Of a stretch of DNA of 22,514 nt, positions 5,281 to 14,038 are shown in pieces (position 1 is the first letter of the stretch; every line of letters starts with the position of its first letter). A program made the translations under genes and the position numbers. Source of the stretch: a virus. Under the pieces are notes generated by a model. That model ran no database searches, had not been told where the DNA came from, and was given only the letters and a program-made list of their open reading frames with translations. The stretch lies in IMG/VR virus record IMGVR_UViG_3300035070_002194, positions 1-22,514 of that record. The stretch is one strand, 5' to 3'.

Positions 5281-5580
5281 CTAAAACGGAATATCGTCGT
5301 CAAAATTATCTTGCTGTGGCGCTTGTGGTGCTTGTTGTGGTGCTTGTTGATCTTGATCAGTGTAGAACACCTTTACATTACCCAGTATAGGCGTTTGCAA
5401 TCCCTGATCTCGTTCTTTTTTGTCTAGCGACTGGGAGATAAAACCATGATCGCCATACTCGTTTGTTTCATCGGTATTGATAAAGGTAGTCAAGTCCAAG
5501 TATGTACCTTTCTGGCCTGCGTACAACCTTTTTTTGTCGATCTTTGTTACATCAATTTTTACGCTTAATCCAATTCTCAT
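5281..5580 (-). CDS. Single-stranded DNA-binding protein (99 aa)
   Basis: The C-terminus DNFDDDIPF is the classic acidic SSB tail that recruits replication and repair partners, linked by a flexible Q/A/P-rich stretch (residues about 76-91). The N-terminal 75 residues have alternating strand character that fits a compact OB-fold, shorter than E. coli SSB. It follows the exonuclease with an ATGA overlap (5577-5580). Together with that gene and the Erf protein it forms a recombination set in which SSB coats resected strands. The OB-fold assignment is inferred from pattern and context. Confidence 0.75.
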   Translation of the reverse strand: MRIGLSVKIDVTKIDKKRLYAGQKGTYLDLTTFINTDETNEYGDHGFISQSLDKKERDQGLQTPILGNVKVFYTDQDQQAPQQAPQAPQQDNFDDDIPF

Positions 5581-6188
5581 TTAATCTTCTCCATCGTTGT
5601 TAAAATAATATCTACAGACTTGTCAATCTCAACCTGTAGCTTTGCTAAAAATTCATCGTCCCGCATAACAGGAATCAACAAGGGTTTTACTTTGGGGTGA
5701 TAGGCAAACAAATCCCAAGACTGTGCGCCAGTTATCAACATACACCCCTGAACCTGCTGAAAATAAGCGATTTTAAAAGTATCGGGGTTTAAGTGATACT
5801 TGACCATCGTACTTGCTTTAGGGCATTTAATCTCTAACCCTGAAACTATTTTTTCATTCTGATAAATAACACCGTCAGGACTGCAACCATACTCGCCAGA
5901 ATCATGCAAAATAAAACCATGCTCGGTGACATCAACATCATGGATAAACTCATAGGCTTTCCGCGCCTCTGGCTCTAGCTCGTTGCCGCGTTCCATATGC
6001 TCATTGGTGTAAAAAGAGTCTGACTCGCCAGTTAGCCGCTCACCAATTAACTCATGTACATAACCCACAGATTGCTTTGACGGTTCACCCTTTGTCGTCA
6101 CTAGCTTTTTAAAGTTACTAGCAGAGGGCTTGCCAAGCCGAGATGCAAGCCATTCATCTGAACCCTGTTCGTGGTTTAAAATAATCAT
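5577..6188 (-). CDS. YqaJ-type phage exonuclease (lambda Exo-like, 203 aa)
   Basis: PD-(D/E)XK nuclease of the YqaJ/lambda exonuclease family. QGSDEWLASRLG at residues 8-19 is the typical opening, GNELEPEAR (68-76) carries a conserved Glu, SPDG (103-106) gives the metal-binding Asp105, and EIK (119-121) is the catalytic E-x-K. It digests one strand of dsDNA from 5' to 3', leaving a 3' strand for the annealase. It lies between the Erf gene (ATGA overlap at 6185-6188) and the SSB gene. Length and motifs are complete. Confidence 0.92.
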   Translation of the reverse strand: MIILNHEQGSDEWLASRLGKPSASNFKKLVTTKGEPSKQSVGYVHELIGERLTGESDSFYTNEHMERGNELEPEARKAYEFIHDVDVTEHGFILHDSGEYGCSPDGVIYQNEKIVSGLEIKCPKASTMVKYHLNPDTFKIAYFQQVQGCMLITGAQSWDLFAYHPKVKPLLIPVMRDDEFLAKLQVEIDKSVDIILTTMEKIK

Positions 6189-6760
6189 TTTTTAGCCTCC
6201 AAAGCCTTTACAACTCGCTCATAATCATTGGCTAAAATATCTTTAATATCACCCACCTTGAACCAACTCAAAAACTTAAACCGATCTGACTTCGTTTCAT
6301 CAAGTAACTTCTCAATGGTTATTATTTGATTATCAGAAATAGTCCTGACTTCGCTTCTATTCTCGTCTCCGCGCAACATTGCCGCCTCCGCATCATCATC
6401 TGCAACTGGTATCCCTGCGATGGATTGCAAAGCGTACCGTCTTGCGTACGTTATTGCAGACCCAAATGATTGAGGGTCTTTTTTAACCGTTGGCAACGTG
6501 TATTCCATTTCAAGGTATTGACCAGAAACGTGCATTAATCTAGTTGATACGCCAACGCCATGCTCGTTACTAATTGGGAATTGGGTATAACTCAACCCGT
6601 TATCGGAAAACGGTTGTTTGATTGCCTTAATAACTGACGTTATATCAGCATATTTTGATTTAAAGAAAGGGTTAGATGAATCCTTAACAACGCCCCCCAT
6701 TTGTCCCTGAGCATTACATAGTGCTTTAGCTAACTCATTGATTAATTCGCTTGATTTCAT
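6185..6760 (-). CDS. erf: Erf family single-strand annealing protein (191 aa)
   Basis: Residues 1-130 match the Erf family (prototype P22 Erf): an N-terminal helix, the SNPFFKSKYADITSVIKAIK block, a central strand region, and QSFGSAITYARRYALQSIAG (about 97-116), the most conserved Erf motif. A linker and a small C-terminal helical domain follow. Erf forms rings that anneal complementary strands, here presumably those produced by the neighbouring exonuclease, for circularisation and recombination of phage DNA. It has an ATGA overlap with the gene upstream and a TGATG-type junction with the exonuclease. Confidence 0.92.
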   Translation of the reverse strand: MKSSELINELAKALCNAQGQMGGVVKDSSNPFFKSKYADITSVIKAIKQPFSDNGLSYTQFPISNEHGVGVSTRLMHVSGQYLEMEYTLPTVKKDPQSFGSAITYARRYALQSIAGIPVADDDAEAAMLRGDENRSEVRTISDNQIITIEKLLDETKSDRFKFLSWFKVGDIKDILANDYERVVKALEAKK

Positions 6761-6912: not shown

Positions 6913-7450
6913 TTTCTTTCTCCTTTGAATTTAAATAGTCTAGTAGAGGCTGGACGTTCTTTTCATCAGTAAGGACTGGGTAGCCGTGAACACCGCAAAA
7001 AGTCCAGCACTTATCCCAAAGACCTTCCTCATAATTAAAATAAATTTCATATTTAACCTGTTGATCATCTTTCCAATACACCACTTGATCAGGCTCAAGG
7101 TTGATCACGGCTTGTAGCACCATGTTGTAACGGCTTTGGTACTGGGCGGCTTTTTCTGCTTGTTCGCGGGTTTTGTAGACGTTGTGGTGTTTTAGCAATT
7201 CCTTGTCTAGCTGGTCGCCCCTCCAGTCTGTCACTTGCACAGTTCCGTCACTACCCACAAAATAATACTTGTCGCCTTTCTTCGGCTCCCAAACAATGCT
7301 TGTGGGCTGGGGTTCGGGTTCTTTTTTATCGGTGGTTAATTCTTCAAGCCTAGATTTCATCTTGTACATTAGGCATTGTTCTTTCCCATCACCTAAGAAA
7401 GCCATGTCTAAAAACTCGTCAGCTTTTTCTAACAATTCTTTATCGTTCAT
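6905..7450 (-). CDS. Phage protein of unknown function (181 aa)
   Basis: Start chosen at ATG 7450, overlapping the preceding stop by one base (TGATG), behind GGGGGTGAG. A GTG one codon earlier is the alternative. The N-terminal 45 residues are helical and charged. Residues about 53-105 (WEPKKGDKYYFVGSDG, then a YKTREQAEKAAQY helix) match a common phage pattern, W-x-P-x2-G-x2-Y-x6-G ending in a T/R-EQAE helix, of unknown role. The C-terminal 70 residues are rich in W, Y and D. Probably soluble. Confidence 0.75.
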   Translation of the reverse strand: MNDKELLEKADEFLDMAFLGDGKEQCLMYKMKSRLEELTTDKKEPEPQPTSIVWEPKKGDKYYFVGSDGTVQVTDWRGDQLDKELLKHHNVYKTREQAEKAAQYQSRYNMVLQAVINLEPDQVVYWKDDQQVKYEIYFNYEEGLWDKCWTFCGVHGYPVLTDEKNVQPLLDYLNSKEKENG

Positions 7451-8061
7451 CACTCACCCCCATCAGCGTTTAAAAAAGCATCGCGGATATCTTTCCAAGC
7501 CGCAGCCCTAGCCGCAGCCCAAACCGCCCAAGCCGCAGCCTCAGCATCCCAAGCCGCAGCCCTAGCCGCATCCCTAGCCGCATCCTTAGCCGCCCAAGCC
7601 GCAGCCCAAGCCGCATCCCAAGCCGCATCAGCCTCAGCCGCATCCCTAGCCGCATCAGCAACTTCTTCCCAATCTTCTGGTGTTGCACTCTGATAATCTC
7701 GGTGCAAATCAATGACAGGCTGTACCACGCCATATTTATCATGGGGCAAGGCAACCTCCAACACCCCGATCATGAAGCTGTGATAAAGGGCATCAAAATC
7801 CTTAACCGTTTCCATCTTCTCAGCAAACTGAACATGCCAATCTTTAGCGTATTTTTCTGGCAGGCTCTCAAATACTTTTTCTTGAAGTCGATGTGTCCAT
7901 TCTTTATATCCTGTTGATCTCGCTAATGCTGCAAAATCATAGGGATCATTTCCATAGTCGCGATTGAAACAGCCAACCGAACACGTTTGCCAAGCACCCT
8001 GCACCAACATATCTCCAGCTTGATGCCGTTTTGCCATTTCTAAAAAAGATTCTTTAATCAC
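7450..8061 (-). CDS. Protein with an Ala/Trp-rich repeat helix (203 aa)
   Basis: Starts with GTG 8061, overlapping the previous stop (TAGTG) behind AGGAGGTGA. Residues 1-130 are an ordinary soluble domain with several Trp and Cys. Residues 134-189 are almost wholly A, W, D, R and E, with Trp at 148, 152, 156, 171, 178, 181 and 189, mostly spaced 3, 4, 7 or 8 apart, so they line one face of a long helix. The DNA is a degenerate array of AGCCGC-like hexamers. Function unknown. The helix could oligomerise, bind membrane, or be a fast-evolving repeat. Confidence 0.75.
   Translation of the reverse strand: MIKESFLEMAKRHQAGDMLVQGAWQTCSVGCFNRDYGNDPYDFAALARSTGYKEWTHRLQEKVFESLPEKYAKDWHVQFAEKMETVKDFDALYHSFMIGVLEVALPHDKYGVVQPVIDLHRDYQSATPEDWEEVADAARDAAEADAAWDAAWAAAWAAKDAARDAARAAAWDAEAAAWAVWAAARAAAWKDIRDAFLNADGGE
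7501..7660 (-). repeat. Degenerate hexanucleotide array coding the Ala/Trp helix
   Basis: About 160 bases built from AGCCGC, AGCCCA, AGCCCT and CATCCC units in varying order. It encodes AA, WA, RA and DA dipeptides on the minus strand. It is much richer in G and C than its surroundings, and copy number is likely to vary between related phages. Confidence 0.8.
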
Positions 8062-8480: not shown

Positions 8481-8507
8481 GTAATCTCAATTAACGGAGG
8501 TGACAAA

Positions 8508-8615
8508 ATGAACATACAAAAATCTTTAACGCATCTTATGAAACAGAGTGGGTACAGAAAAATGAACATACAAAAATCTTTAACGCATTTTATGAAAAAG
8601 AGTGGATACACGCAG
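8508..8615 (+). repeat. 54-bp tandem duplication at the regulator's 5' end
   Basis: 8508-8561 and 8562-8615 are two adjacent 54-bp copies, each starting with ATGAACATACAAAAATC. They differ at several positions near the ends, so the event is older than the 30-bp duplication at 2478. The unit keeps the frame. Confidence 0.9.
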
Positions 8616-8768
8616 GCAGACATAAGCAGGCTTGCTATCCTAAACCCTGCTACTGTTTCATTAGTGATTAACGGCCACAGAGACCCTACCTGTAAGACCA
8701 TAGAAAAGCTGTCTGATTTGTTTGAAGTTAAGGTATCTGAGTTTATAGCGGCAGGTGAGCGTGGATAA
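8508..8768 (+). CDS. Cro/C1-type helix-turn-helix regulator with duplicated N-terminus (86 aa)
   Basis: GGAGG (8496-8500) and a 7-nt spacer define ATG 8508. Residues 19-86 are a complete XRE-type domain: first helix SLTHFMKKSGY, helix TQADISRLAIL (35-45), recognition region NPATVSLVINGHRDP (46-60), and the C-terminal helices TIEKLSDLFEVKVSEFI. Residues 1-18 repeat residues 19-36 because of a 54-bp tandem duplication, so the ancestral protein probably began at what is now Met19 (ATG 8562). It likely represses the two divergent promoters. No larger CI-like repressor occurs in the window. Confidence 0.85.
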   Translation: MNIQKSLTHLMKQSGYRKMNIQKSLTHFMKKSGYTQADISRLAILNPATVSLVINGHRDPTCKTIEKLSDLFEVKVSEFIAAGERG

Positions 8769-9510
8769 GCCGTCTTACTACGCTATTATCCCTGCCAGTG
8801 TTAGATATGATGATACTCTCTGCCCCAATGCTAAACTGCTATATGGCGAGATAACCGCTTTATGCAACAAAGAGGGGCGGTGCTGGGCGGGGAACGCCTA
8901 TTTCGCCAACTTGTACGGAGTCAGCAAGGTATCTATCTCAAAATGGGTGCGCCAGTTGGTTGATGCAGGGTGTATTGAAAGTGAAATACAGCACGCGGAG
9001 GGTAGTAAAGAAATCTTAAATAGGTATATAACTTTAGTTAATGGGGGTATTAAAGAAAAGTTAAGTACCCCACAAAGAAAAGTTAATGACCCTATTAAAG
9101 AAAAGTTTAAAGATAATAATACAGTTAATAATACAACTAATATTACAGTTAATAATAATGATCATTTTGATGCTTTTTGGTCTGCTTATCCTGTTAAAAA
9201 GGGAAAGTTAGCCGCAAGGAAAGCATGGGATAAGTTGAAGTTAAGTGACGATGTTGTTAAATTGATTGCTGAAAACATGAAGGCTAGAATGGATGCGGGG
9301 GAATGGGATGATAAACAATACATTCCACACCCTGCTACGTTTTTAAATGGTAGGCGCTGGGAGGATGAAGTGGGACCTAGAAAGCAATCTATCAGGCAAA
9401 ATTCTATTATGAATGATAGGTCATGGGCTGAAAATACGAGCATTAGAAAAAGAAATATTGAAGATGCGTTAACGGATACATCATGGGTTACGGGAGGATG
9501 CGATGGTTAG
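8755..9510 (+). CDS. Replication initiator / replisome organiser (O-like, 251 aa)
   Basis: Residues about 17-80 are a winged helix of the HTH_36 type (CPNAKLLYGEITALCNKEGR, then VSKVSISKWVRQLVDAGCIE). The C-terminal part, FDAFWSAYPVKKGKLAARKA and IPHPATFLNGRRWEDE (about 145-205), is the domain seen in phage replication proteins and DnaT-like primosome proteins, thought to contact the host helicase system. An Asn/Thr-rich linker joins them, and its DNA holds iteron-like repeats. The start is GTG 8755 or GTG 8761 (MDKPSYY, which fits the family better). It overlaps the regulator gene. Confidence 0.82.
   Translation: MSVDKPSYYAIIPASVRYDDTLCPNAKLLYGEITALCNKEGRCWAGNAYFANLYGVSKVSISKWVRQLVDAGCIESEIQHAEGSKEILNRYITLVNGGIKEKLSTPQRKVNDPIKEKFKDNNTVNNTTNITVNNNDHFDAFWSAYPVKKGKLAARKAWDKLKLSDDVVKLIAENMKARMDAGEWDDKQYIPHPATFLNGRRWEDEVGPRKQSIRQNSIMNDRSWAENTSIRKRNIEDALTDTSWVTGGCDG
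9052..9160 (+). other. Candidate replication origin inside the replication gene
   Basis: Three direct repeats of AAAGAAAAGTTAA lie at 9052-9064, 9074-9086 and 9097-9109 (the last with one change), spaced 22-23 bp, one per two helical turns. They are followed by a very A/T-rich stretch (9110-9160) containing ACAGTTAATAATA twice (9121 and 9145). Iterons plus an A/T-rich unwinding region within the initiator gene is the lambda ori arrangement. The protein translated here is a low-complexity linker. Confidence 0.6.
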
Positions 9511-9802
9511 TAAGAAAAATAATATACAAAAATCTGTATATGTGGGCGAGTGCAATGATAACTTTAAGCATGGGGAAGCGTACAACTACGGTTATATCGA
9601 AACTGTAACTGGCATTCCTGCAAAAATATTAGTTTCTAGGTTCAATCGGCACAGAACGCGAAACCACTTAAAGGTTAATGAGTTTTCAGAATCATTGTTA
9701 TTGCCTGTTGAGGAACGTAAACCGTTTGTTGTAACGTCTGTGTGTGAAACGAGCATGGAAAAACTTTCCGCTTACTGGTTGAGGCAAAAGCTATGCCATT
9801 AG
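9503..9802 (+). CDS. Protein of unknown function (99 aa)
   Basis: ATG 9503 overlaps the end of the replication gene by 8 bases, with GGGAGG (9492-9497) ahead. The sequence starts basic (KKNNIQKSVYV) and has an Arg-rich centre (ILVSRFNRHRTRNHLK). It occupies the place where lambda has the helicase loader P but is far too short, and no AAA+ motif is present. It may be an accessory replication or regulatory protein. The stop overlaps the next start. Confidence 0.65.
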   Translation: MVSKKNNIQKSVYVGECNDNFKHGEAYNYGYIETVTGIPAKILVSRFNRHRTRNHLKVNEFSESLLLPVEERKPFVVTSVCETSMEKLSAYWLRQKLCH

Positions 9803-13058: not shown

Positions 13059-13778
13059 TTATGGTGTTGGTAAAAATGAGTATTTGTATGCGGAACTAGT
13101 AACATTGCCTGTTACCCATAAGCTAGTCCCGTCCCACGCAAGTCCGTAAGGATTTCCCTCTTGGCTTGCTACGTTAAAATTAGTGCCTGTATATACGCCC
13201 GCAGAGGTGTATTGATATACATTATCTGACGATGTACCCACTACCCAAAAATGAGTCCCGTCCCATGCAATATCGTGAGGATTTCCCTCTTGACCTGCTA
13301 CGCTAAAGTTAGTGCCTGTGTATACTCCTGCTGAAGTATATTGATATACCGCATCTGTCTGGCTCTCCACTACCCAAAAATGAGTCCCGTCCCAAGTTAA
13401 ACCATTAGTAGTAGTGCCTGATAGACTAAAGAACGTGCTTTGATATACCCCTGCTGTGTTGTATTTTTCAGCCCTATTATTTGAGGCCCCAATATTTCTT
13501 AAAACCCATAAAAACGTACCGTCAAACGCTATACCTTGCGCTCCACTACCAACGAGAAAAGAAAAATTATCATAAACGCCTGCGGAAGTGTACCTGTATA
13601 GTTTGCCAGACGCAGTTCCAACCACCCAAAAATATGTCCCATCCCAAGTTATGCCTCTTGGTGATATATCTTGAGCAGATATGTCAAAGCTGGTGCCGCT
13701 GTATTGCCATGACTTAGGCCCACCGCCACGACCTACAGCCTTGCCAATCGAGAATGCGCTTAAGTTAGCGTTAATCAT
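13059..13778 (-). CDS. Beta-propeller repeat protein, probable tail adhesin (239 aa)
   Basis: ATG 13778 overlaps the previous stop as ATGA; a longer start would run into the upstream gene. From residue about 44 a unit of about 43 residues repeats: [IL]-[TA]-[WF]-DGT-x-[FL]-WV, an acidic turn, then YxYTSAGVY. Four full copies and a half copy are seen; the N-terminal WQYSGTSF pairs with the last half copy as in velcro-closed propellers. A five-bladed propeller is inferred. The gene lies just after the spike-base-like gene, so a receptor-binding or fibre-tip role is likely. Confidence 0.72.
   Translation of the reverse strand: MINANLSAFSIGKAVGRGGGPKSWQYSGTSFDISAQDISPRGITWDGTYFWVVGTASGKLYRYTSAGVYDNFSFLVGSGAQGIAFDGTFLWVLRNIGASNNRAEKYNTAGVYQSTFFSLSGTTTNGLTWDGTHFWVVESQTDAVYQYTSAGVYTGTNFSVAGQEGNPHDIAWDGTHFWVVGTSSDNVYQYTSAGVYTGTNFNVASQEGNPYGLAWDGTSLWVTGNVTSSAYKYSFLPTP
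13150..13407 (-). repeat. 129-bp tandem repeats (two most similar blades)
   Basis: 13150-13278 and 13279-13407 are adjacent 129-bp units coding nearly the same 43 residues. Shared tracts include GGATTTCCCTCTTG and ACCCAAAAATGAGTCCCGTC. The near-identity points to recent unit duplication and a potential for blade-number change. Confidence 0.8.
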
Positions 13779-14038
13779 GCTATTAGAGCGTGTATGCCAG
13801 TAGCAGTAGTGCCAGTAGATAGCACACGCTTGACCGAACAAATAAGATAAAAGTTATCGGGGACAGCAACCGTCCTAGACACTCCATCTACGTTGTGAAA
13901 AGTCACGTTACCCGCGCCCGTAATGTATAGCCCTATACCTACACTAGATAGGTCTGTGCTGTCGTTTGGGGTGACAGGTAGCATATCAGTTACGCTACCG
14001 TTTAAATGTCCTCGTTTTCCTTCAAATGGATTGCTCAT
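13775..14038 (-). CDS. Spike-base-like protein (87 aa)
   Basis: GAGGT precedes ATG 14038. The pattern LPVTPNDSTDLSS (20-32), GIGLYITGAGNVTF and the end VKRVLSTGTTATGIHAL match the RCAP_Rcc01079 spike-base family known from the Rhodobacter gene transfer agent, where it anchors head spikes. It sits between the tailspike and the propeller protein, both of which may attach through it. The match is by eye on characteristic motifs. Confidence 0.7.
   Translation of the reverse strand: MSNPFEGKRGHLNGSVTDMLPVTPNDSTDLSSVGIGLYITGAGNVTFHNVDGVSRTVAVPDNFYLICSVKRVLSTGTTATGIHALIA

Follow-up and report, generated by a model that had tools for sequence, protein, structure and literature searches.

A probable in-gene replication origin in a phage genome, with dyad iterons that covary with the recognition helix of the initiator

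Introduction

The layout in which a replication origin lies inside the gene of its own initiator is already known from phages and plasmids. In lambda and the Stx phages the origin is in-gene, O binds as dimers, and the iterons are bent (PMC7466680). The four 18-bp iterons of lambda each consist of two inverted arms flanking an A-run (ATCCCTC-AAAA-CGAGGGAT), and the gene for the P loader lies downstream. At oriL of SPP1, gp38 binds direct repeats within gene 38, and there is an A/T-rich unwinding element (PMC6316719). The organizers of Tuc2009 and TP901-1 bind direct repeats in their own genes, which serve as the origin (PMC8965321); the Tuc2009 sequence record likewise carries a note describing the in-gene repeats as an organizer-bound origin.

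Among plasmids and satellites, the RepA_N replicons (pSK41, pTZ2162, and the PLE satellites) have a winged-helix N-terminus and a C-terminal domain that varies by host genus. Their iterons lie inside the initiator gene and are semi-palindromic direct repeats, each of which has arms that converge on a poly-A tract, and in pSK41 the origin is centrally placed within rep (PMC7145576, PMC5703833). In the staphylococcal plasmid pPR9, a phage-type HTH_36 N-terminus and its origin region have been swapped into a pSK41-type Rep, and the pPR9 mini-replicon works (PMC5703833).

In the present study, a locus of this layout was investigated in a phage of about 41 % GC. The whole stretch of DNA analysed, referred to here as the window, is 22,514 bases of an IMG/VR virus record.

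Comparison with described systems

The candidate origin of the window is lambda-like in plan and RepA_N-like in iteron design, and by Pfam it is neither family. A first-pass annotation of this DNA had proposed the lambda ori design with repeats that are different and shorter. The plan is indeed close to that of lambda, since in both the iterons and an A/T-rich stretch are found in the middle of the initiator gene, with an N-terminal DNA-binding domain encoded before them. The description of the repeats needs correction: they are 16-bp dyads, in units of 22-23 bp, and like the lambda units they are inverted repeats around an A-run; they are closer still to RepA_N iterons, whose definition they fit by lying in the initiator gene and having arms that converge on poly-A.

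At the protein level, lambda O and the window initiator have PHROG families 678, 345, and 391 in common. Lambda O matches both PF04492 (Phage_rep_O) and TIGR01610 whereas the window initiator matches neither, direct profile alignment of the window initiator with the lambda O N-terminus gave no match, and, in contrast to lambda, no P gene was recognised directly downstream. Likewise, PF06970 (RepA_N) is absent among the Pfam matches of the window initiator up to E 0.1, and the best PDB fold match, the RepA-DNA complex 5kbj, is weak (E 7.4e-3; TM 0.28 by query, 0.51 by target).

The nearest experimental support for origin function in the window would come, by analogy, from pPR9 (compared by description), the Rep of which shares with the window initiator an HTH_36 N-terminus with an adjacent origin region, in the window a putative one. 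Orf269 of the lactococcal phage phi31 matches phrog_270 (8.6e-62) and has almost the same iterons, GGTATTAAAGAAAATTTTAATACC, as the window, in another recognition-helix context and with another C-terminal end. The Tuc2009 rep (L411) and r1t ORF11 (L412) have repeats every ~11 bp without dyads, unlike the 22-23-bp dyads of the window, therefore there are at least two iteron designs among in-gene phage origins. The N-terminal domains of the Tuc2009, r1t, and TP901-1 replisome organizers also differ from that of the window. Unlike the window, SPP1 (compared by description) has an additional oriR and its own loader and helicase.

The initiator gene and its protein

The initiator gene (8755..9510, + strand) is an ORF encoding a protein of ~250 amino acids. 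Its start is the GTG at 8755 or, by homology, 8761, relatives beginning M-D-K or M-D-N; residues are numbered here from the serine codon at 8758. The protein matches PF13730 (HTH_36) with E 1.1e-10 and 41.5 bits, against a curated cut-off of 25, and phrog_270, 'replication initiation protein', with E 3.2e-45 over residues 4-214. By these family matches, it belongs to the HTH_36/phrog_270 group of phage initiators.

A winged helix had been expected in this protein and is present in the AlphaFold model. This N-terminal domain, residues 7-93 (8776..9036, + strand), is conserved across all 99 clusters of relatives described below, and its pLDDT is in the range 82-93 at most positions as far as residue 80 and drops at the wing, the strands of which are residues 73-79 and 86-93. 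The recognition helix is modelled at residues 57-70 (8926..8967, + strand) and contains the columns with the highest mutual information in the covariation analysis; the likely specificity residues K57, V58, S61, and K62 correspond to alignment columns 50, 51, 54, and 55.

Between the winged helix and the C-terminal domain, residues 97-132 (nt 9046-9153) are modelled with low confidence, mean pLDDT being 34-37 over residues 101-130. The repeats and the A/T-rich stretch had been placed in codons for a low-complexity linker, in agreement with these values, and the linker that carries them is predicted to be disordered.

The C-terminal domain (9160..9507, + strand) is mostly helical in the AlphaFold model, and cluster comparison reveals that relatives with the same candidate origin have unrelated domains here. 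The suggestion of a DnaT-like tail could not be confirmed. The C-terminal part has no Pfam or NCBIfam match, there is no DnaT among the 50 PDB fold matches listed, and a separate structure model of this part was poor; the only PHROG names that touch the question are 'primosomal protein' and 'replication initiation protein' families. The tip of the protein, IEDALTDTSWVTGG (9457-9507), is found again as L-T-D-[TR]-S-W-[AV] in ~10 further clusters, and lambda O ends in a similar stretch, LDLTNTDWIYGVDL. The tip is possibly a short helicase- or loader-binding motif.

Iterons and the A/T-rich element

Three 13-bp direct repeats at a spacing of 22-23 bp had been reported in the first-pass annotation. 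The spacing is correct (22 and 23 bp), and two copies of AAAGAAAAGTTAA are present, at 9052-9064 and 9074-9086. The third copy, at 9097-9109, is AAAGAAAAGTTTA, so the exact match common to the three copies is limited to the 11-mer AAAGAAAAGTT. The reading of the unit as a plain 13-bp direct repeat was rejected. The true unit is longer, ~22 bp, and consists of a G- or C-run, in most cases TA next, then one arm, AAAA or another A-rich core, and the inverted arm, so that the three copies form 16-bp imperfect dyads around AAAA.

On the + strand, iteron 1 is TTAAAGAAAAGTTAAG (9050..9065, with the core AAAA at 9056-9059), iteron 2 is ACAAAGAAAAGTTAAT (9072..9087), and iteron 3 is TTAAAGAAAAGTTTAA (9095..9110), which a dyad scan identified as a clean dyad, TTAAA-GAAAAG-TTTAA. 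A G-run stands before iteron 1 (9043..9047), a C-run between iterons 1 and 2 (9068..9071), and another C-run between iterons 2 and 3 (9090..9092); in L011-type relatives, there is a C-run in the first of these places and a G-run in the last. The dyad scan and the relatives also point to a possible degenerate fourth unit, TATAACTTTAGTTAAT (9027..9042, + strand), in phase and 23 bp 5′ of iteron 1; this unit is uncertain, being weak in the window and clearer in the relative L028. There is no second iteron array within the 22,514-base window.

When codons were shuffled synonymously with the protein fixed, an exact triple 11-mer within 60 bp arose in 68 of 20,000 shuffles, and the only other triple exact 11-mers within 60 bp in the window are in an Ala/Trp-rich gene near 7500-7600. 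Judged from this one sequence and with the protein as given, the repeats are no more than modestly improbable, therefore it is the comparison across relatives that carries the case.

The iteron array is directly adjoined on its 3′ side by a putative A/T-rich unwinding element (9111..9160, + strand) with 12-bp repeats, TAATANTACARY, at 9114, 9126, and 9138. The A/T-rich stretch had been noted to have a repeat pair of its own, and this pair, ACAGTTAATAATA, was found at 9121-9133 and 9145-9157, within the 12-bp array of 9114-9157. Of all 22,465 50-bp windows, the one that begins at 9108 has the lowest stability by nearest-neighbour energies. The word AATANTACA is present in the A/T element of 63 of the 80 clusters with a clear iteron, with copies 12 or 15 bp apart. 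It is kept even in genes of 55-57% GC (L093 and L405 among others) and in genes with unrelated C-terminal domains, and may represent more than plain A/T-richness. At the protein level, the A/T element gives N-x-T repeats, with 140 of 141 in one frame. Because the region was anchored on AATANTACA, the codon-bias evidence for ACA in this element is partly circular, and the codon identity between clades was relied on instead.

Selection on the DNA across relatives

A first comparison was made with 73 viral and 10 genomic relatives. The interval between units is 22-24 bp in 146 of 155 intervals, and the same layout is found with other arms, such as GGAAG/CTTCC, GTGACA/TGTCAC, TTGACG/AGTCAA, and CCCAAG/CTTGAG. 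For codon identity, the window and L003-L005 (clade A) were compared with L006-L028 (clade B), the domains of which are 55-68% identical. Where the amino acid is the same, the two clades use the same codon in 93.7% of cases in the iterons; the figure is 99.7% for the A/T element, but 48.1% for the N-terminal domain and 39.4% for the C-terminal one. None of 20,000 random codon draws reached the identity seen in the iterons. These comparisons argue clearly for selection at the DNA level on both the iterons and the A/T element.

The iterons are not bound to one reading frame. In the window, iteron 2 encodes Q-R-K-V, while iterons 1 and 3 encode K-E-K in another frame, and iterons are present in two or three reading frames in 51 of 80 genes, a count made with a loose unit-calling threshold (10/16 matches).

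The 5-bp words GGGGG (9043-9047) and GACCC (9088-9092), which precede iterons 1 and 3, are swapped between L006-type and L011-type loci, although these are close relatives. The peptides GGI and DPI exchange places between these types while the iteron cores stay. Across the family, G-runs and C-runs seem to be interchangeable, with left flanks of 68 G-type and 115 C-type. A conserved hairpin was rejected as a general explanation for the swap, as in many relatives the runs are all of G or all of C, and inversion was rejected because the A-tracts keep their strand. In the Campylobacter jejuni plasmid pFORC_083_2 (L419), there are TTAACGCAGACGTTAA-type dyads without an A-tract, thus the poly-A core is not indispensable.

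Covariation of the iteron arms with the recognition helix

The set of relatives was extended with more viral contigs, annotated phages, and ~990 prokaryote genomes to 360 genes, which form 99 clusters at 88% identity. The first automatic chain finder was too strict (102 of 212 genes at p <= 0.01, with many plain arrays missed) and was replaced. The layout of the window, with dyad iterons every 22-24 bp after the N-terminal domain and then an A/T element, is shared by 80 of the 99 HTH_36/phrog_270 clusters, and the iterons in these 80 were called without any recognition-helix information. The clusters span Firmicutes, Bacteroidetes, Spirochaetes, and marine viruses; with the Treponema protein as the seed, there was no match in the viral contigs.

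The arms are symmetrical at position 4 in 76 of the 80 clusters (37 when shuffled) and at position 6 in 66 (23 when shuffled). Among 86 N-terminal columns, the highest mutual information with the arms is for columns 51, 55, 54, and 50, all of which are in the recognition helix. At column 55 (K62), Arg is found with C at arm position 4 in 56 of 60 half-sites, and Lys with A in 52 of 54. Val or Ile at column 51 is found with A at position 6 in 43 of 44, and Arg, Glu, or Lys with G in 49 of 50, while at column 54 Ser is found with T at position 7 in 96 of 114 and Arg with G in 12 of 12. For control sites from the C-terminal region, the largest z was 3.4, compared with 15.6 here.

As the 80 clusters are related to each other, these counts are of non-independent events. 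This kinship was addressed in two ways. Partial Mantel r was 0.60 when controlling for the rest of the domain, with none of 2000 permutations above 0.19, and, with training restricted to clusters below 60% identity, prediction of the position-4 base reached 0.88, the majority base giving 0.29. It had been proposed that relatives would keep the repeats at the DNA level or change them with the winged helix, and this is what is seen: the repeats are kept as DNA in relatives that share the N-terminal domain, and they have changed where the recognition helix has.

A small held-out set of 13 plasmid-borne loci was fetched afterwards, of which L414 was identical to training data, leaving 12. In these, 11 of 14 half-sites followed the pairing of Arg with C, and 7 of 10 followed the position-6 rule; the rule of Lys, Asn, or Thr with A held in only 2 of 10 and is unsupported, with one of the failures (L419) being a wrong iteron call. 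Across the sequences compared, the Arg-to-C rule is thus well supported, and the other residue rules depend on context.

No residue-to-base table for HTH_36 initiators was found in the open-licence literature, and within the literature searched the present table is new. An in-gene origin holds lock and key in one reading frame, which makes each sequenced relative a natural binding experiment; 80 clusters sufficed to pick the likely specificity residues without bench data. The result yields point predictions for natural proteins and natural sites and, if the code holds, sequence could be enough to read the compatibility of origins in many phages and phage-like plasmids. A joint reading is put forward tentatively, as a proposal rather more apt to fail than to hold: a partial HTH_36 code, in which column 55 would specify arm position 4 (Arg for C:G, Lys for A:T), column 51 position 6, and column 54 the outer pairs, combined with AATANTACA as a second recognition element that, like the DnaA-trio, would be specific for single strands.

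Function of the locus

The iteron-type origin that had been annotated inside the initiator gene is supported by the DNA-level conservation in relatives and by the covariation. Based on these, the region 9043-9160 is very probably an initiator-bound in-gene origin, the origin activity of which we infer. As an explanation of the locus as a whole, an in-gene replication origin with initiator dimers on the dyads opening the A/T element is strongly favoured.

In this origin, dimers of the winged-helix N-terminal domain would bind the three dyad iterons, one per approximately two helical turns. The recognition helix would read the iteron arms, as is strongly indicated by the covariation, and each unit probably introduces a bend through its A-tract. 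By analogy with lambda O and RepA_N, the nucleoprotein complex may open the A/T-rich repeats beside it, and recruitment of the replicative helicase may fall to the C-terminal domain.

Because the origin is in linker codons, the N-terminal domain and origin can move as one module, joinable to different C-terminal domains. Among 20 C-terminal groups, TTAAAG arms are found with seven, and the largest group has 17 different arms. In the RepA_N replicons of PLE satellites, the N-terminal domain and origin are likewise exchangeable (PMC8263062). The window and its relatives suggest that N-terminal domain and origin behave as an exchangeable cassette here also.

It is improbable that the dyads, although bound by the initiator, are chiefly an autoregulatory or incompatibility (handcuffing) site, with replication starting elsewhere. 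The array is in the middle of the gene rather than at its promoter and directly next to the A/T element, which is nearly invariant and has the lowest stability in the window; the window has no second array, and an in-gene array is the origin in all of the well-studied relatives by design. What weight this alternative retains comes from the covariation, which speaks for recognition and not for origin activity, and from the fact that initiators often repress their own synthesis through iteron binding.

The dyads could also be sites for another protein, such as the small HTH regulator (8508-8768) or a host factor; there is a Cro/CI-type HTH gene directly upstream of the initiator, and A/T-rich origins commonly bind host factors. 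This is very unlikely, however, as across the 80 clusters the arms vary with the initiator's own recognition helix to an extent beyond general relatedness, and the array is kept in relatives with other upstream genes (SSB, HNH nuclease, and ERF).

Least probable of all, and rejected as a full explanation on the grounds of frame change, codon identity, and covariation, is that a repetitive, low-complexity peptide linker gave rise to the repeats as a by-product; although two of three copies encode K-E-K, the N-x-T repeats keep almost entirely to one frame, and synonymous shuffles can reproduce the triple repeat, the middle copy is read in the other frame, GGI and DPI trade places over an unchanged DNA core, synonymous sites are frozen, and changes in the arms are symmetrical and go along with those in the recognition helix.

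Neighbouring genes and other features of the window

Many relatives of the initiator have a DnaC-like loader or DnaB helicase adjoining or near it. Among the Pfam, PHROG, and NCBIfam matches in the window, no helicase loader was recognised adjoining the initiator; in its place there is a 99-aa protein (9503-9802) without a family match, beyond which are NinB-like and then NinG-like genes. In the other arm of the early region, an ERF single-strand annealing protein and a YqaJ nuclease form a pair (5577-6760, - strand).

Repeats were also observed outside of the initiator gene. The start of the upstream HTH regulator gene contains a 54-bp near-perfect tandem duplication (8505-8610), which repeats MNIQKSLTH...SGY. 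A protein encoded at 7450-8061 (- strand) has an Ala/Trp/Arg/Asp-rich repetitive tail, with DNA of 70% GC and 9- to 45-bp repeats. A 129-bp tandem repeat of 2.1 copies (82%) is present at 13125-13394, in the ORF 13059-13841 (- strand); the encoded protein, made of W-D-G-T-x-[FL]-W-V-type repeats, is perhaps a beta-propeller-like fibre part.
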